IMG/VR virus record: IMGVR_UViG_3300047300_000571
Location: 1-24,641 of that record
Strand: one strand, 5' to 3'
Source: a virus
Length of the DNA stretch: 24,641 nt
Shown piece by piece: positions 1-23,849 of this stretch; the first letter of the stretch is position 1, and the number at the start of each line of letters is the position of its first letter. Below the pieces are notes generated by a model that saw only the letters and a program-made list of their open reading frames with translations, was not told where the DNA came from and ran no database searches. The translations under genes and the position numbers were made by a program.

Positions 1-75
1 CCCCACAGAAAGTCCTTCAATACTTTTGGTAAGTGTTTTACGAAATTTGCTAACGTCAAATGGTTTAGTTGCCAT
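1..75 (-). CDS. uvsX: UvsX/RecA-like recombinase, N-terminal fragment (runs off the window)
   Basis: Only the first 25 codons are inside the window. They begin MATKPFDVSKFRKTLTKSIE, which matches my memory of the N-terminus of UvsX-type recombinases of marine T4-like phages (a DVSKFRK-LTKSI stretch just before the RecA core). UvsX forms the presynaptic filament on single-stranded DNA for recombination-dependent replication and acts with gp32, whose gene lies upstream in the same direction. The ATG at 75 is preceded by a good Shine-Dalgarno (AAGGAAA on the minus strand, around 82-88). The gene overlaps the end of the preceding radical SAM gene by 11 nt, so it is probably translationally coupled to the cassette. 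The Walker motifs are outside the window, so the assignment rests on a short segment. Confidence 0.66.
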   Translation of the reverse strand, partial: MATKPFDVSKFRKTLTKSIEGLSVG

Positions 76-1213
76 GATAATTTTCCTTGTATAAATCTTT
101 AAAAATGTTGCGACTGTTTAAGTTTCTTCTCAAGTCCAACTGTTCAAGTTGTCGCAGGGACTCGGCGAAGTCTTTACTAAACGGCTCTTGGATGTATTTT
201 AACATATTTCTATAGCCGTCTTCAAGTAAAAAACCGGGCCTGTCGTTAATGCGTTTCTCCAAAGTCATCTTTACAGAGTTTAGCATATCGTCAGGTAATT
301 GTCTAATGTTTAGGTATTCAGGATTGAGCAGTGGACCAATAACGAAACTGTTGTTATGGAATCCCATATTGCTTAGATAGTCTACGCAACCAAACAAACT
401 CTGATGGTTTAACAAGAAGTGTAACATGTTAAACGATATCTTGTGTCCTAGGTTGCGTATAGTGTTTAGGTTGTCTAGGAAGTCATTCCAGCGCCCGCCA
501 TACCTAATGTATTCAAATTCTTCTTCGATGGTTTCTACACTTACAATCCAATGCACATTCTTAAACTCGCAGATACGTTCAAACACTCGTGTATCCACTT
601 TGCTTAGATTAGTGTTAATGCGTAAATTAGTTTCTGGGCGCAGTAAGTCTAATAGCTCTAAGTTTTCTTTCATTAGCAGTGGTTCGCCACCTGCTAGATA
701 TACGTGTTCTAGTTGATTTGCGTGTTCAAAGATATACTGCTTAAATGCTTCGCGCTGTTGTGGTGTTGGTGTTTCTGTTACTACTCCAAGTTCGCTTGCC
801 CACTTACTACTAAACTCTGGACCGCAGTATACGCAACCAAAGTTACACAAGTTAGTCCAACGTACATCGATGGTACGCAAATCAAAGTTACCAGGTTGAT
901 ATGTTTCTAGTGGAACTTTCTTTAGTTCACGGATGTAGAAGATTCTGTCACTGATAATGTCAAATCCACGCTTGCCTTCTTCTAGTTTGTAGCAAGGTGT
1001 GCAATTGCTTGTACCTGTGCGATCACTTATTAGCCACTGTCTGTTGTAGTTAGTGTCGCCTAACACAATGTCTTCAATTGCTTCTTCTCGAATATTGCCT
1101 ATAGTTTCTGCACTACGGATGCAGTTCTTAACTGTGCCATCAAAGTTGTACATAAGCCCAGTCCAGGGCATAGGACAAAATAATCTATTAGTTACAATGT
1201 CCTTGGGTGTCAT
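65..1213 (-). CDS. Radical SAM protein with N-terminal twitch/SPASM-like cysteine region (copy 1)
   Basis: A 382-aa radical SAM enzyme. The 4Fe-4S/SAM motif CNFGCVYC (C123, C127, C130) is followed by GGEP at 175-178, the usual SAM-binding strand. An N-terminal region carries C13, C31 and the pair C71/C74 in the context CTPCYKLEEGKRGF; this resembles the auxiliary-cluster (twitch/SPASM-like) motif of phage and bacterial radical SAM proteins, here placed before the barrel instead of after it. Such enzymes generate a 5'-deoxyadenosyl radical to modify peptides, sugars or other substrates; the substrate is unknown. The start overlaps the SDR gene stop in an ATGA (1210-1213), and its own end overlaps uvsX, so it is part of a coupled operon. 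Family assignment is firm, biochemical role is not. Confidence 0.88.
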   Translation of the reverse strand: MTPKDIVTNRLFCPMPWTGLMYNFDGTVKNCIRSAETIGNIREEAIEDIVLGDTNYNRQWLISDRTGTSNCTPCYKLEEGKRGFDIISDRIFYIRELKKVPLETYQPGNFDLRTIDVRWTNLCNFGCVYCGPEFSSKWASELGVVTETPTPQQREAFKQYIFEHANQLEHVYLAGGEPLLMKENLELLDLLRPETNLRINTNLSKVDTRVFERICEFKNVHWIVSVETIEEEFEYIRYGGRWNDFLDNLNTIRNLGHKISFNMLHFLLNHQSLFGCVDYLSNMGFHNNSFVIGPLLNPEYLNIRQLPDDMLNSVKMTLEKRINDRPGFLLEDGYRNMLKYIQEPFSKDFAESLRQLEQLDLRRNLNSRNIFKDLYKENYHGN

Positions 1214-1740
1214 ACTGGCCCTACACTAATATCATTTACTAGCAAGTCTGGCTCCGCGGCTGCTAGTGTGTTAACAACAAACTCTGCCCAGCGATCTACA
1301 TCTGCACTAGGCGGGACTGTCTTTTGTTCAGTAGTAGCGATATCCCCAGGACGAACTAGCACAATGCGTGGTAGTCGGCTTTTGTGTCGTAAAGACTTTA
1401 CTGCTTCTTCTAGGGCTACCTTCTGTACACGGTATTCTTCTAGTCCGGGAATAGATGTAACAGGTTCTTGTGTCATCATTGTGCTAATAACCACAATGCG
1501 CTTGTCCTGTCCTTCCCAGCGGCGATGCATTTCAAATAGCAATTCTGTTTGTGCAAAACCTGCTTGTGCATTGTTAACAAACATATCGCAATCTGTAATA
1601 GCATCTGCACAACGTGGAGTAATCTTAATATTGTATCCGTTGCTCTTGCTTAATCCCACAACTACATGGCCATGCTGGACAAAGGCACGTGACAATGCTG
1701 CCCCTATTCCTTTTGTATGCCCAGTAATTGCTATCTTCAT
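1210..1740 (-). CDS. Short-chain dehydrogenase/reductase (SDR) family protein
   Basis: A 176-aa Rossmann-fold protein. It shows the SDR nucleotide-binding motif TGHTKGIG (residues 6-13), an NNAQAG variant of the NNAG strand (56-61), a serine in VVISTMM (S86), the catalytic YxxxK (Y103, K107) and the PG turn (131-132). The Ser-Tyr-Lys set is intact, so an NAD(P)(H)-dependent oxidoreductase is plausible. It is shorter than the usual 240-260 aa, lacking much of the C-terminal substrate region, as in other compact phage SDRs. It lies between a 2OG oxygenase and a radical SAM enzyme, with 4-nt ATGA overlaps on both sides (1737-1740 and 1210-1213), which implies coordinated translation and a shared pathway. 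The substrate cannot be inferred. Confidence 0.86.
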   Translation of the reverse strand: MKIAITGHTKGIGAALSRAFVQHGHVVVGLSKSNGYNIKITPRCADAITDCDMFVNNAQAGFAQTELLFEMHRRWEGQDKRIVVISTMMTQEPVTSIPGLEEYRVQKVALEEAVKSLRHKSRLPRIVLVRPGDIATTEQKTVPPSADVDRWAEFVVNTLAAAEPDLLVNDISVGPV

Positions 1741-2291
1741 TGTAGTAACTCCAGCGGTTCTTTGTGGAATGTAAAGCTAGCAATTATGCGTGGCAATGTA
1801 GTTGGGCTAACTGGAACAACAGAATGTGGTACACGACTGTTAAACACAATAGGCATACTCAGATCGTCTAACTGTTCCGGTGCCAGCAATGCATCAGATG
1901 ATAGCTGTGACACATCTTCGCAGTCTGCGCCAAACTGTGTTACCTTTCTTGGCAACGTCTCGAGTACACCATCTGGCAATGAGTACCAGTAGTTAGTCCA
2001 ACCCGCGTTGTTAGCAACAGGGAAATTGATCTTAGCTGTTACTGGAGCAGGATCAATGTGTAAGTCTAAGCGTCTGTATAAAATAACTACAGCGGCCTCT
2101 CGCGGTAGCAATTTGTATGTTTTAAAGAACTCTACCAGCTCGGGAACACTACTTAACAAACTCTTGCAATCAATAAACTGCCAGCCTTCTGCGCCATCTT
2201 GTAATAGAGATGTGCGTGTTTCAACAAACTCATATATCTTCTGAGATATAGTAGCAATGTTGTTACATTCTAGCCGACGGTAGTTTTTCAT
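1737..2291 (-). CDS. 2OG-Fe(II) oxygenase-like (double-stranded beta-helix) protein
   Basis: A 184-aa protein with the spacing of a non-heme iron, 2-oxoglutarate-dependent oxygenase. The iron facial triad would be H78 and D80 (LHIDPAP) with H156 (SRVPHSVV), and R168 (PRIIASF), 12 residues later, would bind 2-oxoglutarate. The intervening KINFPVANNAGWTNYW resembles the core strand of phage and aspartyl/asparaginyl-hydroxylase-like members. Such enzymes usually hydroxylate amino acids, nucleobases or small molecules. It overlaps by 4 nt both the upstream radical SAM gene (2288-2291) and the downstream SDR gene (1737-1740). Sequence divergence from textbook families is large, so the call rests on motif geometry. 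Confidence 0.72.
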   Translation of the reverse strand: MKNYRRLECNNIATISQKIYEFVETRTSLLQDGAEGWQFIDCKSLLSSVPELVEFFKTYKLLPREAAVVILYRRLDLHIDPAPVTAKINFPVANNAGWTNYWYSLPDGVLETLPRKVTQFGADCEDVSQLSSDALLAPEQLDDLSMPIVFNSRVPHSVVPVSPTTLPRIIASFTFHKEPLELLQ

Positions 2292-3268
2292 TTATAGTAG
2301 TCCCATAGCTTAATACCACGTAACTGATCTTGTTTATAGGTCCACAGTTGCAGTTCTACTGTGTTGTCTCGTTCGGATCCTACATACAGTTTTAACTCTT
2401 CTGGAACATCTGCTGTTCTTGTAAAGTGGTTGCTGTACTTAACATTTAACACATCTGGGTTTTCCAGGAATGCCCATGCGTGTTTGATACTGTGTTCTGA
2501 CGTGTAGTTGATAATGTTCTTTAGATCTCCTACGTTTAGTGCGTGTACAGTTGTCCAGGTGTTTAAATCAATAGCATCACCTAGACTACAATAGAAACGT
2601 AGTGTAGCTTCGTAGTGTTCCCAATTGCTAGGCCAACGCACATATTCGTGTACTCTTCCGATGCCATCAAAACTAACTGTGATAGTAAGCTTAATACCGC
2701 GTTCAATTAGTTTTATAATGCCGGGCAGTGGTCTAATGCCATTTGTGTTTACACGAACGTGTTTAACATTAGCGGGTAAGTTTTCTAGTAGTTGCTGATA
2801 TGCAGGACTTACTGTAGGTTCGCCACCATTGATGTCTAGTTTAACAATGCGATCTACCGGGAGTTGCCAAAACTTCTCTGCATTGTTTGTTGTGTAGTAG
2901 TCTTTTGAGTATAGACTACCAATCTTCGTGCTGTGCTCTGCATTGCACGATATACAAGCACTTTGGCAGATGTTGTCAAGAACTCCCCCAACAACAAGGT
3001 AATCAGTTTTGATTTGCGATAAATCGCTTTGTTCCTGTTCTGAAAATTCTCTGATACTCGTTTGCTGTACTCGCTCAGCTGCCTCGCATCGTCTACATTC
3101 CGCGGGAAATATATCAGAATCCATATTGCTTGTAACATTCTTTTGCCATTCACTGTTATCCATTTCCTGGATAGTAGCAAACTTAGGAGCGTCGACCATA
3201 TGTCCACAGCGACTGACTGTTCCGTCATAGTTTAGCCTTACAAAATGTTTTAAGCGAGCACATTGCAT
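2288..3268 (-). CDS. Radical SAM protein with N-terminal twitch/SPASM-like cysteines (copy 2)
   Basis: A 326-aa radical SAM protein. The cluster motif is CQSACISC (C101, C105, C108) and the SAM-binding motif is NGGEP at 147-151. As in the other radical SAM protein of this cassette, the N-terminus carries C3, C21 and a C58/C61 pair, a plausible second Fe-S site placed before the barrel. Conserved barrel features such as VRVNTNG and ITVSFDG follow. The two enzymes are clearly paralogous in architecture but well diverged, suggesting two chemical steps or two substrates. The start (ATG at 3268) lies inside the sulfotransferase gene (19-nt overlap) with only a weak Shine-Dalgarno, consistent with translational coupling; the end overlaps the 2OG oxygenase start. 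Confidence 0.86.
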   Translation of the reverse strand: MQCARLKHFVRLNYDGTVSRCGHMVDAPKFATIQEMDNSEWQKNVTSNMDSDIFPAECRRCEAAERVQQTSIREFSEQEQSDLSQIKTDYLVVGGVLDNICQSACISCNAEHSTKIGSLYSKDYYTTNNAEKFWQLPVDRIVKLDINGGEPTVSPAYQQLLENLPANVKHVRVNTNGIRPLPGIIKLIERGIKLTITVSFDGIGRVHEYVRWPSNWEHYEATLRFYCSLGDAIDLNTWTTVHALNVGDLKNIINYTSEHSIKHAWAFLENPDVLNVKYSNHFTRTADVPEELKLYVGSERDNTVELQLWTYKQDQLRGIKLWDYYK

Positions 3269-3876
3269 AGCGTAATCGATCTTTCAATAATTTCTTTGTA
3301 CGCATCCGGGTACTGTGTGCGTATATGTTCTACAATGTCTTTAAACGAGACTGTTTGTCCTACTAGATCCACTAATGCTTTGTCTAGTGTTAGATAAAAA
3401 TGCAAACGCATATTGTCATTAAAGAACTCTACTAGACTTGTGTCTCGAGGGGGATTGTTTAATGTATATGGCGTTACGTTCTTAGTGTATTGATCTAGTT
3501 CTGTAAGCGAACGCAGTTTAATCTTAGCTGTAGTGTGCCTGCTTAAATTAAGAAGCCAATGGAACTGTGGTGCATAATGTCTGTTTAGAAACAAGTAACG
3601 GTCTACATAATGTAACACCGTTTCTCTGTGGTATGTATCTGGCAATCTGCTTAGATACATTTGAACACCACTCACAAATCGTTCCATTGGCGCCCTAACA
3701 AAAACATCAACTGTGTCTAATGTCAGCAATTCGCTTTTGTCTAATAGCCTATACCCAGACCCATACAATGCGCTACTACCATTTTTAAAGATAGGATACA
3801 CATACTGTTGCCCCGGAACGACTTCGAGTACCTCGCAATCATCAGGGAAGATAATAGGATCAATGTATGACAGCAT
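3250..3876 (-). CDS. Sulfotransferase-family protein
   Basis: A 208-aa protein with the two PAPS-binding signatures of the Sulfotransfer_2-like family. A P-loop-like 5'-phosphosulfate motif IFKNGSSAL is at residues 29-37, and a 3'-phosphate motif FVRAPMERFVSG at 59-70 has R61 and S69 in the expected places. A HYAPQFHWL segment (100-108) matches the H-x-PQ pattern of carbohydrate sulfotransferases. It would transfer sulfate from PAPS to a hydroxyl or amino group of an unknown acceptor, presumably in the host cytoplasm. It is the first gene of the five-enzyme cassette and lies just after a terminator that separates it from gp32. No clear Shine-Dalgarno precedes the ATG at 3876, so the start is tentative. 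Confidence 0.76.
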   Translation of the reverse strand: MLSYIDPIIFPDDCEVLEVVPGQQYVYPIFKNGSSALYGSGYRLLDKSELLTLDTVDVFVRAPMERFVSGVQMYLSRLPDTYHRETVLHYVDRYLFLNRHYAPQFHWLLNLSRHTTAKIKLRSLTELDQYTKNVTPYTLNNPPRDTSLVEFFNDNMRLHFYLTLDKALVDLVGQTVSFKDIVEHIRTQYPDAYKEIIERSITLCNVLA

Positions 3877-3884
3877 ATAGAGAA

Positions 3885-3910
3885 TAAGGGTAGAGTTTCC
3901 CCTACCCTTA
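3885..3910 (-). terminator. Hairpin terminator downstream of gene 32
   Basis: A perfect 9-bp inverted repeat (3885-3893 with 3902-3910, stem TAAGGGTAG) closes an 8-nt loop, 8 nt past the gp32 stop codon. The minus-strand sequence after it is T-rich (TTATTCTCTATAT) but has no long uninterrupted U-run. It probably ends or attenuates the gp32 transcript before the sulfotransferase cassette. Confidence 0.6.
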
Positions 3911-3918
3911 CTTTACAC

Positions 3919-4929
3919 TTATTGTGTCTTACGGTTACGGATCATTGCCAAGATATCTTCGGCCTTTTGGCTAGAAGGTTTGGCTGCTGGTGTAACTACA
4001 GGAGCTTCTGCGGCTTCGGCTGCATCTTCTTCCCAAGGTTGGGTTTCTGCGGCTGCTGTTGGAGCAGGAGCGGCTGCTGGTACAGCTACCTTAACTGCTG
4101 GAGCGGCAACTTCGTCACCTGTGCTACCAGCACCTGCTTGTAAGCCATATGGCTTGTAGTAGTTAGCCCACTTTTCAGGGTCGTATGGCTGACCATCAAC
4201 AGATGCTTCAAACATCTCTTTGATAACTTTCAACTCTACATCGCCTGGTTGCTTAGGCAAGAAGTCGCTCAAGTTATGAAGACCATGTGTTTCAATTGCT
4301 TCAGCTTCTTGTGCTGTTAGTGCAGACTCTTTACGTGACCAGCTAGAAGTGCTGTAGTCAGCGTAACCACCTTTGGAAGTCTTCTTGATAGAGAAGTCCA
4401 AACCTGCCGCATAGTCTGTTGGCAAGTTTTCCATTTCTGGATCCATCAATGCGTTCTTGATCAAGTTAAAGATCTGTGGGCTGATAACGAAACGACGGAT
4501 TGGATTCTCCGGAGTCTTGTCATCACCAATAGGATTATCACGTACAAAACCTTGGAACAAGTAAGACTTCTTCTTCCAGTATTTACGGCCCATTTCTTCT
4601 AGGTTAGGGTCTTTAAACCATGTACGTACTTCTGCCAATACAGGGCAGGCTGCGCCGTACATTTCAACGCAAGGAACTTGAACAACAACAGGCTTGCTGT
4701 CTGCTTGACCTTTAATGCCAGCGAATGGCAGTTTGATCATCAGACGTTCAACCCAGAAAAATGAGTTCTTGTCGTTTGCGTCGGGGAGGAATCTTACACG
4801 AGCTGTGGTGCCTTCTGGGATGTTCCAGTGTGCATAAATGGCATTGTCGCCACCACCTTGGGAATTGCCGCCTTTGCGGTTGTCTTGAGATTGTAGTTTT
4901 GCGCGAATTTCAGCTAAAGTCATGGCCAT
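3919..4929 (-). CDS. 32: gp32-like single-stranded DNA binding protein
   Basis: A 336-aa gp32 homologue of the type found in marine T4-like phages. It has a basic N-terminal region with a KGGNSQGGG linker, an OB-fold core (about residues 31-235, including GRKYWKKKSYLFQGFVR and NPIRRFVISPQIFNLI), then an Ala/Pro/Glu-rich tail ending in the short helix-like AEDILAMIRNRK. It coats single-stranded DNA during replication, recombination and repair, and in T4 it autoregulates its own translation. The T4 zinc ligands (one His, three Cys) are not reproduced: only C87 and C95 are present. A strong Shine-Dalgarno (TAAGGAGAA, 4935-4943) lies 5 nt before the ATG at 4929; the gene is flanked by terminators on both sides and has its own late-type box. 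Confidence 0.93.
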   Translation of the reverse strand: MAMTLAEIRAKLQSQDNRKGGNSQGGGDNAIYAHWNIPEGTTARVRFLPDANDKNSFFWVERLMIKLPFAGIKGQADSKPVVVQVPCVEMYGAACPVLAEVRTWFKDPNLEEMGRKYWKKKSYLFQGFVRDNPIGDDKTPENPIRRFVISPQIFNLIKNALMDPEMENLPTDYAAGLDFSIKKTSKGGYADYSTSSWSRKESALTAQEAEAIETHGLHNLSDFLPKQPGDVELKVIKEMFEASVDGQPYDPEKWANYYKPYGLQAGAGSTGDEVAAPAVKVAVPAAAPAPTAAAETQPWEEDAAEAAEAPVVTPAAKPSSQKAEDILAMIRNRKTQ

Positions 4930-4934
4930 AATAG

Positions 4935-4971
4935 TTCTCCTTAAAAATGTGCCTTAATAATTGTGCCTTAA
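4935..4971 (-). promoter_or_regulatory. Direct repeats in the gp32 leader; candidate translational operator
   Basis: The plus-strand decamer TGTGCCTTAA occurs at 4948-4957 and again at 4962-4971, and a related TTCTCCTTAA at 4935-4944 contains the Shine-Dalgarno complement. On the RNA this reads as three TTAAGG-headed units 13-14 nt apart, the last being the ribosome binding site. T4 gp32 represses its own mRNA by cooperative binding through an AU-rich leader, so an operator role is an inference. Confidence 0.45.
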
Positions 4972-5004
4972 GATGTATAATGCACTCACTGCATTGTACG
5001 TAAG

Positions 5005-5011
5005 TATTTAT
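5005..5011 (-). promoter_or_regulatory. Late-type promoter box ATAAATA upstream of gene 32
   Basis: On the minus strand this reads CATAAATA, one base from the T4 late consensus TATAAATA. It would start an mRNA about 70 nt before the gp32 ATG, a leader that contains the direct repeats. It directly follows the terminator at 5021-5050. Confidence 0.55.
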
Positions 5012-5020
5012 GACAAGTCA

Positions 5021-5050
5021 AAAGAAAAGGCACAAATTTTGTGCCCTTTT
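5021..5050 (-). terminator. Rho-independent terminator between the 524-aa gene and gene 32
   Basis: A GGCACA/TGTGCC stem (5029-5034 with 5040-5045) has flanking A and T runs. On the minus strand the stem is followed by TTTTCTTTT, a classical U-tract. It lies 18 nt past the stop codon of the upstream gene. Confidence 0.82.
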
Positions 5051-5067
5051 GGTTAAACTAGTTTAGG

Positions 5068-6642
5068 TTACTTGCGTAGTCCCGCTAGTGCTCGAATGAA
5101 GTCTAGTGGATCTGCACTTTGCATAACTGGCTGTGCAGGCTGTTGTTCTTCTTCTGGTGCAGGTGGTTCAGCAGGTGTTGCTCCAGCTTCTGGTGCAGGA
5201 GCGGCTGCTGGTTCAGCAGGTGTTGCTCCAGCCTCTGGTGCAGGTGTAGCTGGCTCTTGTGTAGCGGCAGCTGCCTTTTCTGCCGGTTGTGGTGTGCCCA
5301 ATACCGGTTCTGTGCCCATAGCTGGATTTTCTGGTTTCTCTGCAGAAGCCATTGCTTGTTCCATTTCTTGTGCTAGTGCAGGGAAATGGTCTTGCAACCA
5401 ATTAATAACATCTTCGCGGCAATCGTATTCTGGACCTTTGATGTCTGCTAATTCGCCGATGTTGTCAAATAATTGGTCATCGCCAATGATGTTGTACAGG
5501 GCGCTGGTTGCATCCATGCCATCTTGTCCAACCAACAAAGGCTTGCTTAGTAGTTCACGTAGCTTTTCTACATCACCTTCTTTATCCGGAACAGCCCATG
5601 TTCCTTCTACAACCGAGTTGGCCCAGTTTTCAAATTCTTCAGCCATTGATGTATTCATAGACTCTTCCTGTTTTCTGTGTGCTCGATATACATACGGCAG
5701 GGCCGCATCAAAACGCTCATCATACATCTTCTTAACAAAACGCTCACGCAATGCGTCAACATCGTATTCGTCTTCTGCCGCGACTTCTGGCATATAACTT
5801 TCCACAAAGTCTAGGTAGTGGCGTGGGCTTCTTAGACGCTTCAGTTGGTTCTTCAGCTCGTAATATCGATTAATGGCTGCTTGGGCCATTTGGTCTGTTT
5901 CTGCATCTTCAAATTGACGGCGCTTAACTGCACGTACGAAATGGCCCATGCTGGCCATTTCTGCAACCATACCATCAATTGCTTCGCAAATTTCGTCATT
6001 ATGTTCACCACCGTTACTTAGATGCATAGCAACTGCGGCAGCAGCCGGCAAACTATTGTGGTTCATGCGGAAACGATCACCACGTGGAGTTTCCACAAAT
6101 ACTGCTTCTACCTTACGTGTACGTGCGCCACGTTGAGTTTCATCAATGCTTTCACTGTGTACAATACGTAAACGGCAATTGCCCACGTCTTCAAAGCTGT
6201 GACGACTTGTGCCGTACTTGCGGCTTTCTGTCATTTGAATTTCGTCTTTATCTAGTGTAGCATCTGACTTACTTTGTTGCTTAATATCTTTAAGCTGTAA
6301 GTTGCTTTTAGTAATATCACGTGTATCAAAGTTCAGCATGTTACGCTTGGCAAACATGCGTAGACTGCGTAGGAAGTCGTACCACTTACCTGTGTCTAGT
6401 CCTGCGTCTTTGATATTATCAATAATGTCTGTGCCGAAATAGACTTTAAGTGCTTTTTCGTCAATTAAACTGATGGTGACGTTGCCCATTGACTCGCCAT
6501 CAATGTCATAATCAAAGTTAAAGAAACGTGCCTTTTCCGGATCTTGTGTAGCTTTGGCGTTTTCATCGCCTAAGTTTACACTGTCAAATCGGCTACGGAT
6601 TTTCTCAAACAAGTTGTCTGCAATTTTGTCTATTTCTCTCAT
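5068..6642 (-). CDS. Conserved phage protein of unknown function with Pro/Ala-rich C-terminus (524 aa)
   Basis: I do not recognise a catalytic domain. The first 420 residues are charged and appear globular and mostly helical. Residues from about 430 form a Pro/Ala/Glu-rich linker with a tandem 15-aa repeat (APEAGATPAEP twice), ending in a short hydrophobic-basic tip (DPLDFIRALAGLRK). Its neighbour gp32 has a similar layout of Ala/Pro/Glu linker plus terminal IR-containing helix. The ATG at 6642 has no Shine-Dalgarno, but an ATAAATA box ends 5 nt before it, suggesting a leaderless late transcript and thus perhaps a virion or assembly role. It is followed by a strong terminator. Its place between a 2OG oxygenase and gp32 gives no further clue. 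Confidence 0.8.
   Translation of the reverse strand: MREIDKIADNLFEKIRSRFDSVNLGDENAKATQDPEKARFFNFDYDIDGESMGNVTISLIDEKALKVYFGTDIIDNIKDAGLDTGKWYDFLRSLRMFAKRNMLNFDTRDITKSNLQLKDIKQQSKSDATLDKDEIQMTESRKYGTSRHSFEDVGNCRLRIVHSESIDETQRGARTRKVEAVFVETPRGDRFRMNHNSLPAAAAVAMHLSNGGEHNDEICEAIDGMVAEMASMGHFVRAVKRRQFEDAETDQMAQAAINRYYELKNQLKRLRSPRHYLDFVESYMPEVAAEDEYDVDALRERFVKKMYDERFDAALPYVYRAHRKQEESMNTSMAEEFENWANSVVEGTWAVPDKEGDVEKLRELLSKPLLVGQDGMDATSALYNIIGDDQLFDNIGELADIKGPEYDCREDVINWLQDHFPALAQEMEQAMASAEKPENPAMGTEPVLGTPQPAEKAAAATQEPATPAPEAGATPAEPAAAPAPEAGATPAEPPAPEEEQQPAQPVMQSADPLDFIRALAGLRK
5165..5244. repeat. 45-nt period tandem repeat encoding Ala/Pro-rich linker
   Basis: A 35-nt segment at 5165-5199 recurs at 5210-5244 with one mismatch, in frame with a period of 45 nt (15 codons). 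It encodes duplicated APEAGATPAEP-like units of the 524-aa protein, a sign of recent repeat expansion in the linker. Confidence 0.8.
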
Positions 6643-6646
6643 ATTC

Positions 6647-7219
6647 TTATTTATGTGAATATTTAGGAAACACAGTATAGCTTGTTACCCTAAATGTGCC
6701 TTCTGGCACAGGGTTTAGCATAGCATGCCAGTTTAGTGGTTGTGACCCGTCGGGGTTTGGGCCGTTTAGCATCATGTATCCTGTATTTGGTTTAAATTCA
6801 AATTTAGCTCTGTAGTCTTTTTCACGCCCAAAATTGTGAAAGCTAGTTGCTAGGTTAGGTTGCCCTACCCAAAATAACTGTAAGCTCATTGGCAGTTCGC
6901 CATCAGTGTGCATAGGTACCCAGAAGCCAGGTTGATCTACCCACCAATTGGTGTTGCCAATGTTAGCGTCCCAGTCAAAAACAAGTCCCAGCTGTTCTGC
7001 TAGAACTGGCTGTAGCTTTGCAATGTAGTCACTAGCTTCCCTAAGCACAGGATACTCGTCCCTGTTAAGACTTTTACGGGCCCACATCTCTTGTGCGTTT
7101 TGTACGTCCCAGTTCATGTTATTCCAATCAAGAGCTAGCAGACGATCTACTAGTTCTTGTGGGAATATGTCTATTACGTGGAATACTCTATTAGTATCAT
7201 CTACCGGAATTAGTTGCAT
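6647..7219 (-). CDS. 2OG-Fe(II) oxygenase superfamily protein (190 aa)
   Basis: A prolyl-4-hydroxylase/PKHD-like oxygenase by motif. HTD (H104, D106) in PMHTDGELPMSLQLFW and H165 in NWHAMLNP make the iron triad, and R177 (FRVTSY) would bind 2-oxoglutarate. The N-terminal DIFPQELVDRLLAL segment is typical of this fold. Members are very common in T4-like aquatic phages and often have unknown protein or nucleotide substrates. Its start overlaps the terminase gp17 stop as TAATG (7219-7221), with the Shine-Dalgarno GGTGAG inside gp17, so it is translationally coupled to the large terminase. Its last codons (CAT AAA TAA) double as the late promoter box of the next gene. It is a different lineage from the oxygenase at 1737-2291. 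Confidence 0.85.
   Translation of the reverse strand: MQLIPVDDTNRVFHVIDIFPQELVDRLLALDWNNMNWDVQNAQEMWARKSLNRDEYPVLREASDYIAKLQPVLAEQLGLVFDWDANIGNTNWWVDQPGFWVPMHTDGELPMSLQLFWVGQPNLATSFHNFGREKDYRAKFEFKPNTGYMMLNGPNPDGSQPLNWHAMLNPVPEGTFRVTSYTVFPKYSHK
6648..6654 (-). promoter_or_regulatory. Late-type promoter box ATAAATA abutting the 524-aa gene
   Basis: The minus strand reads CATAAATAAGAATATG: the box ends 5 nt before the ATG at 6642, and no Shine-Dalgarno is present. The box includes the TAA stop of the upstream oxygenase. By T4 spacing rules, transcription would begin at or next to the A of the ATG. Confidence 0.6.
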
Positions 7220-8787
7220 TAACTCACCATAATAAAAGGCATTGGCTCAATGAAGTCGTCTAAGCTATCACGCAACTTTTGATCTAAGTCTGGGTCAAAA
7301 CTTTGTAACATCTGAATCATTCGTACTACTAACATTGTTGCCATTACCAAGTCGTCGGTTTCGCCTGTCTTAGCTTCATAACTATTGCCCATTGCAACAA
7401 ATGTTTTTAGTTCAGACAACAAGTTCTTACTTGCAATGCGTAGACGTTTTGTTTCTACTAAGCTCTTGAACTTGGCACAAACTGCCAACTTGCTTTTGTT
7501 TGTAGTAGTAAAACCTCTGCGGTATGTGCGAACGTTTCCAACCTTCTTTGGTTCGGTTAAGAATGTTCCGTGAATGTTTTCTTCGCCGATCTCTGCAATA
7601 CTTACTAAGGCTGCTTCCCCTAGAGTGTTGTTTTCAACGCTGTAATAGATATCGGTATCTGTGCCTACTATTTCATATAAGTAATCGCAGATTTCTTTCA
7701 TGATTGCAATTTGCCGTTGCACTGGAGTCTTGTTATGTTGCCACTCCCCTACTTGCATTAAGGTAGGCAATTCAAAGATTTGTATCGCTGCACAGTCGCC
7801 GCCTGTTCCCAAGCTAGGGTCTAGTCCCACTACGTACTGATGACCTTTTTGCGGTTTTTTATACCAGCGCACTTGCCCTTGGCGTTCGATTGGGTCCATG
7901 CCGTCCATTTCCAGCAAAGTAATCGCATTAATTAGAGTTTCGTCGTAGATCAAGAACTCGCATCCATGTTCACGACGGAAGCGTTCTTCACCAATACGTC
8001 CCATTTCGTCTGCTTTCCACTGCTCGTCACGATCCGGATGTTCCCACCAATTGGCCTGATATCCACGGAACCCGTTTATACCTAGTTCTGTTTCGTTGCC
8101 AAACTCGTCGACCCGCTTGTTGGCTTGTTTCCAGATTAACGCAAATTGGTCTTCATCGCTGTTTGGAGTACTTGTAATAATTGCTCGACCACCAGTTGAT
8201 AGTGTAGGAGAAATGGAAGTCCAGAACTCGGTAGCAATTGTAGGTCTCACGAATGCAAATTCGTCACAGTATAGAAGCGAAATGGACATACCACGTCCGG
8301 TTGTTTCGGTTGTTGTTTGGCTTACAATACGTGAACCATTTTCGAATTCCAACGAACCTTTGTTGTAACTGGTACAACCTGCCCGAATATGGTCCGGGCA
8401 CAATTCGTAAGCATATCGTATACGTTGCATAATTTCTTGTGCGCCAGTGTACTTGTGCGCGGCGATAAGTATAGTACTGTCTGGAACAAACATGGCATAC
8501 CACAACAAATACCCTGCGGCGCTTGTTGATTTGCCCGTTTGTCTAGGCATTAAACTTATAGAGAATCTATAATTATGGTATGTATCAATTAGCTTCTTTT
8601 GAAATTCAAAAGGATGATACAGCATCTTACCTTTGACGGGGTGCTGTATGAAAAAGTAGTTGTCCATGAAGTACATTGGACCCGTAATAGGGTCAGCACA
8701 TCGCGCAAATTCTAAGATTTGTTGCTCTGTGTATGTAGCCTTCTTGTGAGGCGTTTTTACTAGTTGTGTTTCGTCAAATTTTCCCAT
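7219..8787 (-). CDS. 17: Terminase large subunit (gp17-like DNA packaging motor)
   Basis: A 522-aa large terminase. The ATPase domain has a Walker A variant PRQTGKST (81-88), Walker B with catalytic glutamate LLYCDE (171-176) and a coupling motif STP (206-208). The RNase H-like nuclease domain has GLDPS (D323), VENN (E385) and TDDLVMA (D478/D479), matching the Asp-Glu-Asp metal site of T4 gp17 (610 aa in T4). It cuts concatemeric DNA and pumps it into proheads. The gene is separated from gp16 by about 4 kb including an inverted HNH gene, unlike T4 where 16 and 17 adjoin. The ATG at 8787 lacks a Shine-Dalgarno; an ATAAGTA box lies 7 nt upstream. The stop overlaps the next start as TAATG. Confidence 0.96.
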   Translation of the reverse strand: MGKFDETQLVKTPHKKATYTEQQILEFARCADPITGPMYFMDNYFFIQHPVKGKMLYHPFEFQKKLIDTYHNYRFSISLMPRQTGKSTSAAGYLLWYAMFVPDSTILIAAHKYTGAQEIMQRIRYAYELCPDHIRAGCTSYNKGSLEFENGSRIVSQTTTETTGRGMSISLLYCDEFAFVRPTIATEFWTSISPTLSTGGRAIITSTPNSDEDQFALIWKQANKRVDEFGNETELGINGFRGYQANWWEHPDRDEQWKADEMGRIGEERFRREHGCEFLIYDETLINAITLLEMDGMDPIERQGQVRWYKKPQKGHQYVVGLDPSLGTGGDCAAIQIFELPTLMQVGEWQHNKTPVQRQIAIMKEICDYLYEIVGTDTDIYYSVENNTLGEAALVSIAEIGEENIHGTFLTEPKKVGNVRTYRRGFTTTNKSKLAVCAKFKSLVETKRLRIASKNLLSELKTFVAMGNSYEAKTGETDDLVMATMLVVRMIQMLQSFDPDLDQKLRDSLDDFIEPMPFIMVS

Positions 8788-8794
8788 TGTAATA

Positions 8795-8801
8795 TACTTA
8801 T
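8795..8801 (-). promoter_or_regulatory. Possible degenerate late box (ATAAGTA) for gene 17
   Basis: The minus strand reads CATAAGTATATTACAATG, one mismatch from ATAAATA, ending 7 nt before the gp17 ATG. It overlaps the ATG of the divergent HNH gene. Weak on its own; it is listed because other SD-less genes here share this layout. Confidence 0.35.
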
Positions 8802-9333
8802 GAGCGATTGCCTACTACTAAACTCAGATTACCGTCCGATCTCAGTGCTTCCACTGAGTGTTATCGGCTGGCAACATGCAATCAAGCTCATGTTCTTGAA
8901 GAAGGTCCATGTGCTTGAAACTTACCCTGATTGGATTATCCGTTCAGAGTCATTGGCCATTAATGTGCCCAGTGTTTGCGTCACTACGGATTACTTCAAG
9001 TACAAAAAGAACGTGAAGTTTAGCCGTTACAACATGTACCTGCGAGACTTGTTCCAATGTCAATACTGCGAAGAAATCTTTGATTTTGACGAGCTAACCA
9101 TTGACCACGTTGTTCCACGAGCAGCCGGTGGTAAGACTGAATGGACTAACTGTTGTACTGCATGTAAGCCTTGTAACCACAAAAAGGGTGACAAGCTGAT
9201 GCGTCCAAAGACTATGCCTTACAAGCCCGACTACTACAATCTTGTTAACCGTTGGAAGGATCTACCTTTTACAGTTAAGCAAGCAAGCTGGAACAAGTAT
9301 TTGGGTGTTGATAAGGAAGTAAGAGCAGCTTAA
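8800..9333 (+). CDS. HNH endonuclease, inverted next to gene 17
   Basis: A 177-aa protein starting at MSDCLLLNSDYRPISVLP (ATG 8800), which is the conserved N-terminus of a common phage and bacterial HNH family. An in-frame upstream ATG at 8764 would lie inside gp17 and adds a non-conserved extension. The nuclease core spans residues 87-130: zinc ligands C87/C90 and C122/C125, the DH pair (D102, H103), N117 and H127. Such enzymes cleave DNA and may act in homing or assist packaging cleavage when beside terminases. It is on the opposite strand to the whole block, diverges from gp17 with a 12-nt gap, and its stop overlaps the 151-aa gene end by 4 nt. Confidence 0.9.
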   Translation: MSDCLLLNSDYRPISVLPLSVIGWQHAIKLMFLKKVHVLETYPDWIIRSESLAINVPSVCVTTDYFKYKKNVKFSRYNMYLRDLFQCQYCEEIFDFDELTIDHVVPRAAGGKTEWTNCCTACKPCNHKKGDKLMRPKTMPYKPDYYNLVNRWKDLPFTVKQASWNKYLGVDKEVRAA

Positions 9334-9785
9334 AGCTCGTCTCGCTTCCGATCTAATTCGGCCGACAGGTCCTGAACTTTATCAGGGTTTGCTCGGCCGT
9401 CTTTGTCTAGTAGGTATCGGGGATTAGGCTCTGCGTCTGGCTTGTCATCACCTACGGGCTTTTCACCTGTTAGCTCAGGACGAGCAAAGTATAAGCGGAA
9501 CCATTCCGGAGTCCCTACTTTAATGTTCAGGTCTTTTTCTAGACGGCGCTTTTCGCCCATCGGGGTATCGCTAACTGTGCCCACTGGACTAATAGAGGGC
9601 ATTGTTTGATCATTGGGTCTATGTTGTTCTACGTTAGAAATACCACCCATATAGTCTTCTAGTAGTCCTTTACCTAGTCCAGCAAGGTGTTTGATTTGCG
9701 CTAAATCGTCCACAGGAATATAAGCATCAGGAATATGACTATCCTGCTTATTAAAGTCTGCGGCAGTTACGCGGTATTGCTTCAT
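9330..9785 (-). CDS. Hypothetical protein (151 aa), charged, no recognised domain
   Basis: A hydrophilic protein with no membrane segment or motif I can name. Residues 1-50 look structured (IPDAYIPVDDLAQIKHLAGLG), and the segment GTPEWFRLYFARPELTGEKP (about 91-110) is the most distinctive. The C-terminus is rich in Asp, Lys and Arg. It starts by ATGA overlap with the preceding 122-aa gene (9782-9785), so the 722-, 122- and 151-aa genes form a coupled trio. This trio lies between the terminase subunits in the late region, so a structural or assembly role is a reasonable guess only. Confidence 0.7.
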   Translation of the reverse strand: MKQYRVTAADFNKQDSHIPDAYIPVDDLAQIKHLAGLGKGLLEDYMGGISNVEQHRPNDQTMPSISPVGTVSDTPMGEKRRLEKDLNIKVGTPEWFRLYFARPELTGEKPVGDDKPDAEPNPRYLLDKDGRANPDKVQDLSAELDRKRDEL

Positions 9786-14310: not shown

Positions 14311-15252
14311 TTAAGCTTTCTTAATGCTGTCAACTAAACCAATTTGGAAGTAGTCTGCATACATGTCGTATACTTCGCTAACAACTTCTTGGAACTTAAC
14401 TAGTTCTTTGTCGTTCATACGAACAACTTCAACACCGTTTTGTTCACATTCAGCTAGAATGTTAGGAATATCAGCAACGCTAGTCTTGCGCTCAATTAGA
14501 GCTGCTTCTGCGGCTGCTTCAGCGAAAACTGCTTGGTCGTGTGTGTCGATACCAGCAAAGAAGTCTTTGTTAGTAATAATGCTAGTTAAGAACAAGCTGT
14601 GTGCTGTGTCATTAACGAACTCAAAGCTCTTGTGTTGGTCCAATGGGAATACGCGAACGTATGTAGATTCACCAGCTTCAATAATGCCTTGGTCTGCGGC
14701 AGCATTCATTTCTTCTAGTGCAATACCTTCAAAAGGTTGTGCGCCTAGCAACTTGAATGTGTCGACTGCAACTGGGCTACGGCTCGTGCGAACTTTCTTA
14801 CCTTGCCATGCATCAACTGTATCTGCTTTAAAGTTAGCAGGAACAATACGGAAGCCACCTGAGTATGTGTAGCTCATGGCGTGAATGTTGCTGTTTTTGC
14901 TTACTGTATCTAGCAAGCCGCGGCCAATTTCGCCATCTAGTACGCGAGTTGCGTGGTCGTGATCTTTAAACAAGAATGGCAAGTCAAGGGCGTGTAGGTC
15001 CTTGTTGTAGTCAGCCAACCAAGTTGTGTAGATGTGCGACATTTCAATAGCGCCACTGTTGATTAGATCCATTAGATCAGATTTAGATACACGCTTACCT
15101 GCGTTGTACTTGTTAGAATAGTCAGTTAGACTTAGAACCTCAATGAAGTACTTGCCTTTAGCCTTAGCGTTAACTTTGGCTGCAAAGTCTTCTGCTACCT
15201 TCAAAAACAAACCGATTGGTTCGTGTGCGATTACCCACTTAATGTGTTTCAT
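14311..15252 (-). CDS. TRAP-transporter DctP-like solute-binding protein lacking a signal peptide
   Basis: A 313-aa protein of the DctP (TRAP periplasmic solute-binding) family. It shows the N-terminal HEPIGLFLKVAEDFAAKVNAKAKGKYFIEV pattern, LDLPFLFKDHDHATRVLDG, GGFRIV and KKVRTSRSPVAVDTFKLLGAQP, the last corresponding to the domain region with the substrate-carboxylate Arg, then AADQGIIEAGE. In bacteria these proteins capture organic acids in the periplasm for DctQM permeases. Here translation starts directly at the mature-like sequence; the upstream frame has a stop 10 codons earlier, so no secretion signal is encoded and the protein should stay in the cytoplasm. The Shine-Dalgarno AAGGAAA supports the ATG at 15252. 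No permease genes are in the window. The gene sits in the late region. Confidence 0.85.
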   Translation of the reverse strand: MKHIKWVIAHEPIGLFLKVAEDFAAKVNAKAKGKYFIEVLSLTDYSNKYNAGKRVSKSDLMDLINSGAIEMSHIYTTWLADYNKDLHALDLPFLFKDHDHATRVLDGEIGRGLLDTVSKNSNIHAMSYTYSGGFRIVPANFKADTVDAWQGKKVRTSRSPVAVDTFKLLGAQPFEGIALEEMNAAADQGIIEAGESTYVRVFPLDQHKSFEFVNDTAHSLFLTSIITNKDFFAGIDTHDQAVFAEAAAEAALIERKTSVADIPNILAECEQNGVEVVRMNDKELVKFQEVVSEVYDMYADYFQIGLVDSIKKA

Positions 15253-15404: not shown

Positions 15405-15411
15405 TATTTAT
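15405..15411 (-). promoter_or_regulatory. Late-type promoter box ATAAATA after the TctC-like gene
   Basis: The minus strand reads TGATAAATAATTATG. The box overlaps the TGA stop of the TctC-like gene by one base and would drive the small ORF and the DctP-like gene up to the terminator at 14272-14296. Confidence 0.6.
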
Positions 15412-16337
15412 CATCTAGCCCTGTCAATTTCAGCTTTGTATTTCCTAGTTAAATAGTGCATTTGGCTAACTCGTTTAACAAAGAAATCATTAACTGTTAC
15501 AGGCGGATTGTTGAACTGTGGGGCAAATAAATCAGCCGATTCTAACATAAACTCACTGCCTACTTGTCCCTGTGCATCTACTAGGATTTTAGATATTTCA
15601 TCGCGCTTTTCTTTGGGCATCTTTACGTTAGCAACAACAGTAAAGAATATTGTGGGCGTATCAAACCCTTGCTCTTTTAGTGTTTTAACTTCAGGCATTG
15701 TTGGGTTACGCTTAGGGCAATTGATACCCAGTACTTGCAATCTAGGGTTTCGTTCTTTAAATGTCTTAAAATTCTGGACACGCTCTATTACAAAGTTAAC
15801 ATCGTTATTTCCTGCCATGTTTACTAGGGCGTCGAAATTGGCTTTGTAAACAACATATCGCACATCAAACCCGTAACGTTCTCCAAGCATAATAGCAGTA
15901 ATGTGCGAAGCATTGCCAAAGCCAGTTCCGCCAACTACAATGTCTTTTTGTCCTTGTAGACTAGCCACTCCCTTTTTAGTGTCCCCTACGTTAGTAATAA
16001 TTGCCCAACAAGCATCACCTTGCGCTAGTACAGGAACATAGTCTGCTTCGTTAATAAGTCCTTGTTTAGAGTTTTCAACAAAAGCAGGAGCAATGGTTGC
16101 TAGTCTATTAGCAGGACTAATGTCCATGTTCTTTAGAGCCAATGCACCATTGGCACCCGGCTTCATTTCAATAATAAATTCGTATTTGTCTTGAATTTTA
16201 TTTGCTACATCAAGAGTTCGAATATACGTTGCTACGTTGGGTTGGCTCGGGGCCGTGCCGTTTACAAGAGTGATAACTTCTCGTGCGGTCGCTGATAACG
16301 CAATGGTTGCCAATAAGATGGCTAATAGTTTTTTCAT
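15411..16337 (-). CDS. TctC/Bug-family tripartite tricarboxylate transporter solute-binding protein with signal peptide
   Basis: A 308-aa protein counted from ATG 16337. The first 18 residues (MKKLLAILLATIALSATA) form a classic Sec signal peptide with an A-T-A cleavage site. The mature part has Bug/TctC hallmarks: a first strand leading to PSQPNVATYIR, the NMDISPANRLATIAPAFV region, GGTGFGNASHITAIM, and VVYKANFDALVNMAGNNDVNFVI, matching the VPYKG-LxGGQ-D pattern of this family. Bug proteins bind carboxylates and are especially expanded in Betaproteobacteria. A TTG 15 nt upstream is an alternative start but gives a poorer signal peptide. A late box lies 33 nt before the ATG. No TctA/TctB permease is present, so it would depend on a host permease. 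Confidence 0.88.
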   Translation of the reverse strand: MKKLLAILLATIALSATAREVITLVNGTAPSQPNVATYIRTLDVANKIQDKYEFIIEMKPGANGALALKNMDISPANRLATIAPAFVENSKQGLINEADYVPVLAQGDACWAIITNVGDTKKGVASLQGQKDIVVGGTGFGNASHITAIMLGERYGFDVRYVVYKANFDALVNMAGNNDVNFVIERVQNFKTFKERNPRLQVLGINCPKRNPTMPEVKTLKEQGFDTPTIFFTVVANVKMPKEKRDEISKILVDAQGQVGSEFMLESADLFAPQFNNPPVTVNDFFVKRVSQMHYLTRKYKAEIDRAR

Positions 16338-16370
16338 TGTGGTTCCCGTCAATTGGGTGTATTGATAAAA

Positions 16371-22844: not shown

Positions 22845-22891
22845 ACGGCAATTTTGGGCATCTAGAGTGCCCTTTGCAAAGGTTTTGCCGT
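22845..22891. other. Nested inverted repeats between divergent late promoters
   Basis: An outer pair ACGGCAA/TTGCCGT (22845-22851 with 22885-22891) encloses an inner stem GGGCA/TGCCC (22856-22860 with 22868-22872) and a perfect palindrome CTTTGCAAAG (22872-22881). The structure lies between the sheath late box and the plus-strand TATAAATA box and could act as a terminator or protein-binding site; its role is not known. Confidence 0.5.
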
Positions 22892-22898
22892 ATAAATA
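22891..22898 (+). promoter_or_regulatory. Perfect T4 late promoter TATAAATA for the plus-strand HNH-like gene
   Basis: An exact TATAAATA is followed by CTCAT and then the ATG at 22904. With T4 spacing the +1 base is the A of the ATG, and there is no Shine-Dalgarno. Confidence 0.72.
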
Positions 22899-22903
22899 CT
22901 CAT

Positions 22904-23254
22904 ATGGAAGACCGACCACTATGCCCTACTTGCTTTGAACGTCCTGTAGCTGTTAATTATGTTAAGGAAGACCGCGTTCATTATCGCAAGGTCTGTGATA
23001 GCTGTGCTCGCAAAGGTAAGAAACTAAAGCCTAAACCACCACAGTGGGTTCAACGTGGCTATAAGAAAAAACCACAATGCGAACATTGTGGCTTTAAGTT
23101 CAAGTTTGCTGAGCAAAGCTTAGTTTATCATGTAGACGGCAATCTAACTAACACTGATCATCTTAATCTAAAGACTGTGTGTCGTAACTGCGCTATAGAA
23201 GTTAGCAAAAGTCGATTACCTTGGAAACCTGCTAAGGCTGTACAAGGGTTTTAA
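22904..23254 (+). CDS. HNH-like/zinc-ribbon protein conserved in T4-like aquatic phages (116 aa)
   Basis: Three CxxC pairs are early or central: C7/C10, C31/C34 and C59/C62; a fourth, C93/C96, closes the treble-clef. Between the last two lie YHVDGN (H76) and the segment NTDHLNLKTVCRNC, the layout of an HNH endonuclease-like finger. It matches my memory of a small conserved cyanophage protein with the pattern C..C-AVNY...C.SC...CEHCGF...DGN...NLKTVC. I set the start at 22904, not at the in-frame ATG at 22874, because the TATAAATA box falls between them. It may be a nuclease or a DNA-binding zinc protein. It is inverted relative to its neighbours and converges on the kinase gene with a 23-nt overlap. 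Confidence 0.82.
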   Translation: MEDRPLCPTCFERPVAVNYVKEDRVHYRKVCDSCARKGKKLKPKPPQWVQRGYKKKPQCEHCGFKFKFAEQSLVYHVDGNLTNTDHLNLKTVCRNCAIEVSKSRLPWKPAKAVQGF

Positions 23255-23849
23255 GTTGGTTAAACAGGTGCTCAATTGACTTGTTGTTATCAACAATCAT
23301 ATCAAAGTCTGTACCAGCCCAGCTATACTCACTAGCATGAATGCCGTTAAGACCTAGCCACTCACGTGCTTTGTTGTCTCCACGATTAGCAGACTCTGCA
23401 ATGCTGTACCAATGCGGAATAATCCCACGCTGAATCCAAATAATCTTAGCGCCTTGTTCTTTGAGCCCTTTAATTTCGTTAGGAAAGCGGCAGTCTGTAA
23501 TAACAATATTATCTTTAGCTGTGCGCAATTTGTTTTCTAAGCTAGCAATCCAAATGTCGTCGTGGAAGTGTGCTCGGAGAACGTTTGTGCCCCATTGCTG
23601 TAACACATAACGTGGTGTTAATTCTGGGATGCCCAGACGTTTAGCCCACCACTCATCCACTTGCTCACGCCATTCACGGCTTGCGCCTGTACGTCCTTCA
23701 AGTAATTCCCTGTCCCATCCAAAGATATCTGCTACTGCATCCTTTAGAGTAGCCGCAAAGCTTTCACGTTTGAAGTTATACGAGTTGCACAAGTAGTCTG
23801 CGGCTGTATCTTTGCCGCTACCAATTAATCCACAAATTCCAATAATCAT
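23232..23849 (-). CDS. 1: Deoxynucleoside monophosphate kinase (T4 gp1-type)
   Basis: A 205-aa P-loop kinase. Walker A is GLIGSGKD (7-14). Further family features are FKRESFAATLKDAVADIFGW, the QQWGTNVLRAHFHDDIWI segment and VITDCRFPNEIKGLKEQGAKIIWIQR. In T4, gp1 phosphorylates dNMPs, including modified ones, to feed phage DNA synthesis. The ATG at 23849 lies right after a hairpin whose 3' arm carries the only Shine-Dalgarno-like element (AGGGGC). A sigma70-type promoter starts transcription inside the hairpin, so expression could be early and separate from the late genes around it. The 3' end overlaps the convergent HNH-like gene. Confidence 0.88.
   Translation of the reverse strand: MIIGICGLIGSGKDTAADYLCNSYNFKRESFAATLKDAVADIFGWDRELLEGRTGASREWREQVDEWWAKRLGIPELTPRYVLQQWGTNVLRAHFHDDIWIASLENKLRTAKDNIVITDCRFPNEIKGLKEQGAKIIWIQRGIIPHWYSIAESANRGDNKAREWLGLNGIHASEYSWAGTDFDMIVDNNKSIEHLFNQLKTLVQP

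Follow-up and report, generated by a model that had tools for sequence, protein, structure and literature searches.

A near-universal cassette of radical SAM, short-chain dehydrogenase/reductase and sulfotransferase-like genes between gp32 and uvsX in a clade of large, uncultured T4-type phages

The window analyzed here, a 24.6 kb stretch (24,641 nucleotides) that makes up positions 1 to 24,641 of the uncultured virus record IMGVR_UViG_3300047300_000571, carries five overlapping genes between those for a gp32-type single-stranded DNA (ssDNA)-binding protein and the recombinase uvsX. They encode a sulfotransferase-like protein (ST), two radical S-adenosylmethionine (SAM) enzymes (rSAM1 and rSAM2), an Fe(II)/2-oxoglutarate dioxygenase (2OG1) and a short-chain dehydrogenase/reductase (SDR). 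In a clade of large, uncultured phages of the T4 type, we find these genes to form a core, operon-like unit. The unit is modular, behaving as two pairs, ST with rSAM1 and SDR with rSAM2. As a tentative reading, to which we give a probability of roughly 0.4, the cassette may tailor a carbohydrate, which could be a sugar nucleotide, a glycan made by the phage or a sugar on the host surface.

Recurrence of the cassette in uncultured phages

Relatives of the cassette proteins were identified in uncultured phage contigs (IMG/VR), with 176 for ST, at least 462 for SDR and at least 583 for rSAM2, and gene order was taken from the best 80, and thus most similar, relatives of each of these three scans. 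In the ST and SDR set, 87 cassettes read ST-rSAM1-SDR-rSAM2 and 36 have 2OG1 between rSAM1 and SDR, alongside partial and duplicated forms. Among loci with enough sequence, rSAM1, SDR and rSAM2 accompany ST in 104/108 ST loci, and the full context is present in 103/105 SDR loci. The four exceptions among the ST loci include an artefact of open reading frame (ORF) calling (L092) and a locus that has all families with split ORFs (L057). SDR, rSAM1 and ST lie upstream in 62/62 rSAM2-anchored loci, 61 of which were scored automatically; the other is L197, on the L005 contig, where the ORF caller had masked an intact SDR. The cassette is flanked by gp32 and uvsX in all 102 loci in which both flanks are visible, and the 4-nt overlaps between its genes are kept in most loci. 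The original prediction, made from the window's sequence, had proposed a search for this neighborhood in metagenomic phage contigs and had named homologues that never co-occur as the outcome that would speak against a single pathway; the near-total co-occurrence found instead bears out its proposal of one co-inherited enzyme cassette.

Because the same order is found in more than 100 contigs under purifying selection, its recurrence is far beyond chance. Relative to L003 and L005, dN/dS is 0.03-0.15 where measurable, with ST saturated against L003. Across 49 deduplicated loci, identity falls to minima of 25% for ST, 44% for rSAM1, 44% for SDR and 46% for rSAM2, as against 58% for gp32 and 73% for uvsX. 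The constant location is explained by a shared phage ancestor and therefore reflects long-term retention, not repeated transfer. No relatives of rSAM1, rSAM2, ST or SDR were found in 50,697 isolate phage records (tblastn), and pattern scans for rSAM2 and ST, followed up by tblastn, confirmed none in 84,980 species-level genomes of archaea and bacteria.

In the window, the locus is laid out as follows, from its upstream to its downstream flank:

3919-4929, minus strand: gp32-type ssDNA-binding protein, upstream flank (PHROG 1192, 2e-69)
3880-3915, minus strand: strong RNA hairpin (stem of 13 bp), between the stop codon of gp32 and the start codon of ST
3250-3876, minus strand: ST, PAPS-type sulfotransferase-like protein of 208 amino acids
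2288-3268, minus strand: rSAM1, radical SAM enzyme with an N-terminal twitch-like Cys set
1737-2291, minus strand: 2OG1, Fe(II)/2-oxoglutarate dioxygenase, an accessory member
1210-1740, minus strand: SDR, a very short form of 176 amino acids
65-1213, minus strand: rSAM2, N_Twi_rSAM radical SAM enzyme
1-75, minus strand: start of the uvsX recombinase, downstream flank (translation MATKPFDVSKFRKTLTKS)

Consecutive cassette genes overlap by 19, 4, 4 and 4 nt in the ORF calls, and rSAM2 shares 11 nt with the start of uvsX (about nt 75), which exactly reproduces the five same-strand genes at 65-3876 and the overlaps described earlier and confirms that a precursor gene has no room within the cassette. 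A complete uvsX is seen in the relatives L003 and L004, and tblastn places the window's gp32-type protein nearest to the single-stranded DNA-binding proteins of jumbo phages, Phosso and PA5oct among them. The coupling of the genes had also been taken to imply fixed stoichiometry. Gene overlaps do not imply it, and in the window phage the strong hairpin (dG -20.8, z -4.5) splits gp32 from ST within their 42-nt gap. Where the spacer between gp32 and ST is at least 15 nt, 24/26 loci have a stem of at least 8 bp, compared to 8/26 in a shuffled control, and although the hairpin is kept in place its sequence differs between loci; the spacer is nearly nil in 54/88 loci.

Enzyme families and two modular pairs

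Residue conservation was scored over 102-111 divergent relatives per family, and over 23 for 2OG1. The key catalytic motifs had been described as intact in all five proteins, and they are essentially invariant across these relatives. rSAM2 matches Pfam Radical_SAM (8e-17) and SPASM (2e-5) and, at 223.1 bits (6e-66), exceeds the curated cut-off of 170 for NCBIfam NF033640 (N_Twi_rSAM), of which it is thus a member; rSAM1 matches Radical_SAM at 1.6e-6, and 21/21 of its aligned relatives match NF033640. The core CxxxCxxC cysteines (101/105/108 in rSAM1, C123/C127/C130 in rSAM2) and a GGEP motif, the hallmarks of the radical SAM superfamily, are 100% conserved in 106 rSAM1 and 111 rSAM2 sequences. 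All four cysteines of the N-terminal twitch set, arranged as C3-x17-C21-x36-C58-x2-C61 in rSAM1 (twitch-like) and C13-x17-C31-x39-C71-x2-C74 in rSAM2, are likewise invariant, in agreement with the N-terminal auxiliary Fe-S ligand sets that had been called from the window. Over this N-terminal stretch, rSAM2 can be aligned, weakly, to the auxiliary domain of BtrN, whose cysteines have a matching Cys-x17-Cys ... CxxC layout. We found no reaction assigned to N_Twi_rSAM, whose model name gives none, and the cassette offers a handle for finding the function of this family. Radical SAM domains number 4-16 in every one of the twelve large clade contigs searched (G001-G012, the contigs of L049, L050, L064, L043, L087, L036, L118, L083, L021, L104, L114 and L059, respectively).

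ST carries the motifs of a sulfotransferase dependent on 3'-phosphoadenosine-5'-phosphosulfate (PAPS): a 5'-phosphosulfate-binding (5'-PSB, KxGxS/T) element, FKNGSS; a 3'-phosphate-binding (3'-PB, RxPxxRxxS) element, VRxPxxRFxSG (R-x7-S); and an invariant His100. The PAPS-motif residues K31, G33, R61, P63, R66 and S69 are 96-100% conserved (n = 105 sequences). The window protein has no Pfam match of its own, and Sulfotransfer_2 is weakly matched by 3/21 of its relatives (best E 0.017). Its predicted structure (predicted local distance difference test, pLDDT, 87) matches a predicted phage protein annotated 'Sulfotransferase family' in BFVD (A0A6J7WGY4, Foldseek, 7e-22), followed by weaker phage sulfotransferases, while 3-O-sulfotransferases rank first in the PDB at a non-significant E of 0.46. 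An ST paralog in one relative (ST profile E 1.3e-9) matches the galactose-3-O-sulfotransferase phrog_3347. Taken together, the PAPS-type motifs and the fold match to viral proteins support the earlier call of ST as a putative sulfotransferase, yet the kinship is remote.

2OG1, which also has no Pfam match of its own, shows the motif H78-x-D80...H156...R168, with H78, H156 and R168 100% conserved in the 23 relatives and D80 almost invariant. Its predicted structure (AlphaFold, pLDDT 94.5) has the double-stranded beta-helix fold and matches the PDB at 5.5e-5 with a probability of 1.0 (Foldseek); predicted fold and motif conservation agree in confirming it as an Fe/2-oxoglutarate dioxygenase with the HxD...H triad that had been proposed. 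A second protein of the window with an HTD...H...R pattern, encoded at 6647-7219, immediately after the gene for the large terminase subunit, is possibly another oxygenase of this type; it is 94% conserved in L003 and has no family match. SDR scores 28.7 bits against Pfam adh_short, over the cut-off of 26.6, and contains TGxxxGIG, NNAQ and Y103xxxK107, in which G7, G11, I12, G13, Y103 and K107 are 100% conserved. Its 176 amino acids are a conserved short form, well below the full length of classical members (~250), and no solved structure matches at 1e-8 to place it in a subfamily.

The two pairs are seen in losses and replacements. SDR and rSAM2 are jointly absent in four lineages (L024, L056, L068 and L035/L039) in which ST and rSAM1 stay, and in L035/L039 a deletion scar fuses the start of SDR to a short C-terminal piece like the tail of a third rSAM. 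In L119, L122, L126 and L146, SDR and rSAM2 are retained and ST and rSAM1 are jointly replaced by a different twitch rSAM and a different protein of 184-185 amino acids (L119:4213-4770 in the first of these) that has no Pfam or PHROG match. These natural module losses make the order of steps testable. After correction for gp32 and uvsX distances, rSAM1, SDR and rSAM2 still diverge in concert (partial r 0.45-0.54, 0/500 permutations), but ST barely takes part in this co-variation; the common substrate that had been read from the gene coupling is still a conjecture.

2OG1, by comparison, is an accessory member, being present in 33/111 full loci (~30%), so the constant five-gene set of the original prediction does not stand. 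Near-identical phages can exchange cassette parts: between the window and L003, the DNA of gp32 is 97-99% identical over most of its length and that of rSAM2 ~90%, ST and SDR, for the greater part of each gene, reach only 50-67%, and L003 lacks 2OG1. Prompted by this swap, we considered whether the presence of 2OG1 co-varies with ST or SDR alleles and rejected the idea because the number of gains and losses is similar, at 13-18, whichever gene tree is used. In some loci an additional gene, for a third rSAM or an SGNH-like protein, stands ahead of uvsX, and the cassette persists while such neighboring accessory genes come and go.

These patterns bear on whether there is a single pathway at all. 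The genes could instead encode independent host-takeover or accessory enzymes that are joined only by vertically inherited order: the location never varies and therefore gives no proof that the cassette moves as a whole, the flank-corrected distances of ST and SDR are uncorrelated, and SDR and rSAM2 can vanish while ST and rSAM1 persist. The retention of the 4-nt overlaps, the pairwise mode of loss and replacement, the co-variation of rSAM1, SDR and rSAM2, and the endurance of the cassette amid the turnover of adjoining genes argue against this explanation, which we regard as improbable.

Candidate substrates

We infer a carbohydrate substrate from the analogy to BtrN, the sulfotransferase relatives of ST and the gene context. 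BtrN catalyzes the two-electron oxidation of an aminocyclitol hydroxyl and has an auxiliary cluster that, unlike that of MoaA, is fully Cys-ligated (PMC9012708). In the cassette, rSAM1 and rSAM2 would generate 5'-deoxyadenosyl radicals that abstract hydrogen from substrate C-H bonds, and the four-Cys twitch cluster may take up the second electron, in the way put forward for BtrN, and thereby turn a hydroxyl carbon into a ketone. The NAD(P)H-dependent SDR, as the partner of rSAM2 with which it is lost, could reduce this ketone with defined stereochemistry, for a net epimerisation or redox edit. ST, as the partner of rSAM1 with which it is replaced, would move sulfate from PAPS to a hydroxyl on the same product, and 2OG1 may add a further hydroxylation in ~30% of the phages. 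The outcome would probably be a changed surface or virion glycan, or a masked phage product. As to context, 47/59 loci with enough room have a downstream gene in which a sugar-phosphate nucleotidyltransferase is fused to a mannose-P-isomerase-type cupin, and in G001 and G004 other N_Twi rSAM arrays stand beside carbamoyltransferase, glycosyltransferase (GT)-like and SGNH genes, to which G001 adds a DegT aminotransferase and an epimerase. N_Twi rSAM arrays with GT-like and SGNH genes span L006:3092-13066, L182:12865-L183:9915 and L185:1-13800; those in L183 and L185 include carbamoyltransferase genes, and the L185 array adjoins tail-fibre-like genes.

Several observations weigh against a carbohydrate-tailoring role. 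At 126.8 bits, rSAM1 falls under the N_Twi_rSAM cut-off of 170 and is a divergent relative, not a member. The BtrN comparison reaches a whole-profile E of 4e-4, with agreement in Cys spacing, and is weak over the twitch domain itself (i-E 0.3-0.4), which is N-terminal in the cassette enzymes and C-terminal in BtrN. ST has no significant match among solved structures (PDB), evolves fast, is hardly coupled to the other genes after flank correction (0.00-0.12) and does not track SDR. Adenosine-5'-phosphosulfate (APS)-kinase matches are weak and present in 3/12 large contigs; PAPS would therefore be host-supplied, and its synthesis by the phage was rejected, as only P-loop kinase matches of 25-26 bits were found. 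Most GT-like neighbors of the rSAM arrays lack a Pfam match, DegT aminotransferases occur in only 4/12 large contigs, and a further rSAM in the same phages is plausibly a peptide maturase.

That maturase points to a second candidate, a phage or host protein or peptide modified in the manner of a ribosomally synthesized and post-translationally modified peptide (RiPP), with radical edits by the rSAMs, hydroxylation by 2OG1 and sulfation by ST, for example to Tyr-O-sulfate. Peptide modification relies heavily on radical SAM enzymes that carry SPASM/twitch domains (PMC11002830), many protein hydroxylases are among the fold relatives of 2OG1, one rSAM array lies beside tail-fibre-like genes, and pelagimyophages have rSAM cassettes in their host-recognition clusters (PMC7029224). 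Two relatives have a PapB-like rSAM/SPASM gene next to that of a Cys-rich protein (L192:3707-4138 and 4154-9762, on the contig of L043; L170:16566-18941, on that of L049) with a virion-like N-terminus (LPSSGQISFGDI) and a Cys-rich stretch (NCNCNCTFCACACW), and in G004 the pair is accompanied by 2OG, Trp halogenase (1e-90) and B12-rSAM genes. Judged by sequence, this pair looks like phage-encoded RiPP-type modification of a structural protein by a ranthipeptide-type maturase. No precursor gene lies inside the cassette, however, and none recurs beside it as in a RiPP cluster, while the cassette rSAMs are of the N_Twi and not the peptide-maturase type. An SDR, moreover, is unusual in RiPP-like clusters. 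We regard a peptide or protein substrate as less likely than a carbohydrate but as a serious alternative.

The position of the cassette suggests a third candidate, a DNA base or nucleotide modification tied to replication that would shield phage DNA from host nucleases. The cassette lies inside the replication/recombination block in all 102 loci with both flanks visible, the window encodes a T4-gp1-like deoxynucleoside monophosphate kinase (23232-23849, identified by eye), and in one relative (L167:9214-13010) ST-like and rSAM2-like paralogs flank a tRNA-guanine transglycosylase (TGT)-like DSGGFQ protein near the sliding clamp and DNA polymerase. This DSGGFQ protein is confined to one lineage (G001 and G002) and has no family or structure match, so that a TGT/DpdA identity for L167:10823-12436, which would rest on its motif, was not adopted. 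QueC matches are weak and partial in 2/12 large contigs and thymidylate synthase (TS) occurs in 2/12, all possibly fragments, and 7-deazaguanine or TS-based DNA modification is therefore unsupported as a general feature. We know of no sulfated DNA base, and a DNA target seems to us rather improbable.

Elsewhere in the window, two solute-binding proteins are encoded among the structural genes, one of the TRAP-type DctP family (14311-15252, 2.6e-41), seemingly without a signal peptide, and one of the TctC type (15411-16352, 1.3e-6). As a guess, the TctC-type gene could point to freshwater Burkholderiales as hosts. Two HNH endonuclease-like ORFs (8764-9333 and 22874-23254) lie on the plus strand, opposite to the surrounding genes, and are likely homing elements.

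Comparison with known systems

The accessory enzymes of phages tend to be patchily distributed and to come from the host. A cassette that is near-universal in its clade, sits within replication genes and has no detected bacterial or archaeal relative points to dedicated viral chemistry. It could be an undescribed phage pathway, important enough to have become fixed in the replication block across the clade, for a radical-edited, sulfated metabolite or modification without an equivalent in cells. Its product would have a dedicated viral use, for instance to mask phage DNA or virions or to block a host defence; we put this forward as a somewhat doubtful possibility. In agreement with the original prediction, no named phage pathway or paper with this enzyme combination was found in the literature searched.

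Each enzyme belongs to a known superfamily. rSAM2 is a member of N_Twi_rSAM (NF033640), and rSAM1 and its 21 aligned relatives match the model; for this family, the literature searched describes no pairing with ST and SDR at a site flanked by gp32 and uvsX. BtrN, the 2-deoxy-scyllo-inosamine dehydrogenase of butirosin synthesis (PDB 4M7T), resembles the cassette rSAMs in its radical SAM core and four-Cys auxiliary twitch with the same ligand layout and serves as a works-like model of radical alcohol oxidation. It differs from them in the position of the twitch, its similarity is remote, and no aminocyclitol pathway is seen in the phage. ST is like phage sulfotransferase family proteins (P-SSM7, S-T4 and the uncultured Caudovirales A0A6J7WGY4) in fold and motifs, being 53% identical to A0A6J7WGY4 in the structural alignment, whereas the cyanophage proteins (P-SSM7, S-T4) are distant, non-significant fold matches.

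Large myophages with many rSAM genes, partly in cassettes, are already known from pelagimyophage host-recognition clusters (PMC7029224) and rSAM-rich T4-like marine genomes (PMC5332604). Relative to the papers searched, what is new is that the combination is fixed, that nearly all members of one phage clade retain it and that no cellular relatives of it are detected. While the rSAM genes of those phages form variable cassettes or are scattered, the cassette described here is near-universal in its clade, is embedded in the replication block and combines its rSAM enzymes with ST and SDR partners.

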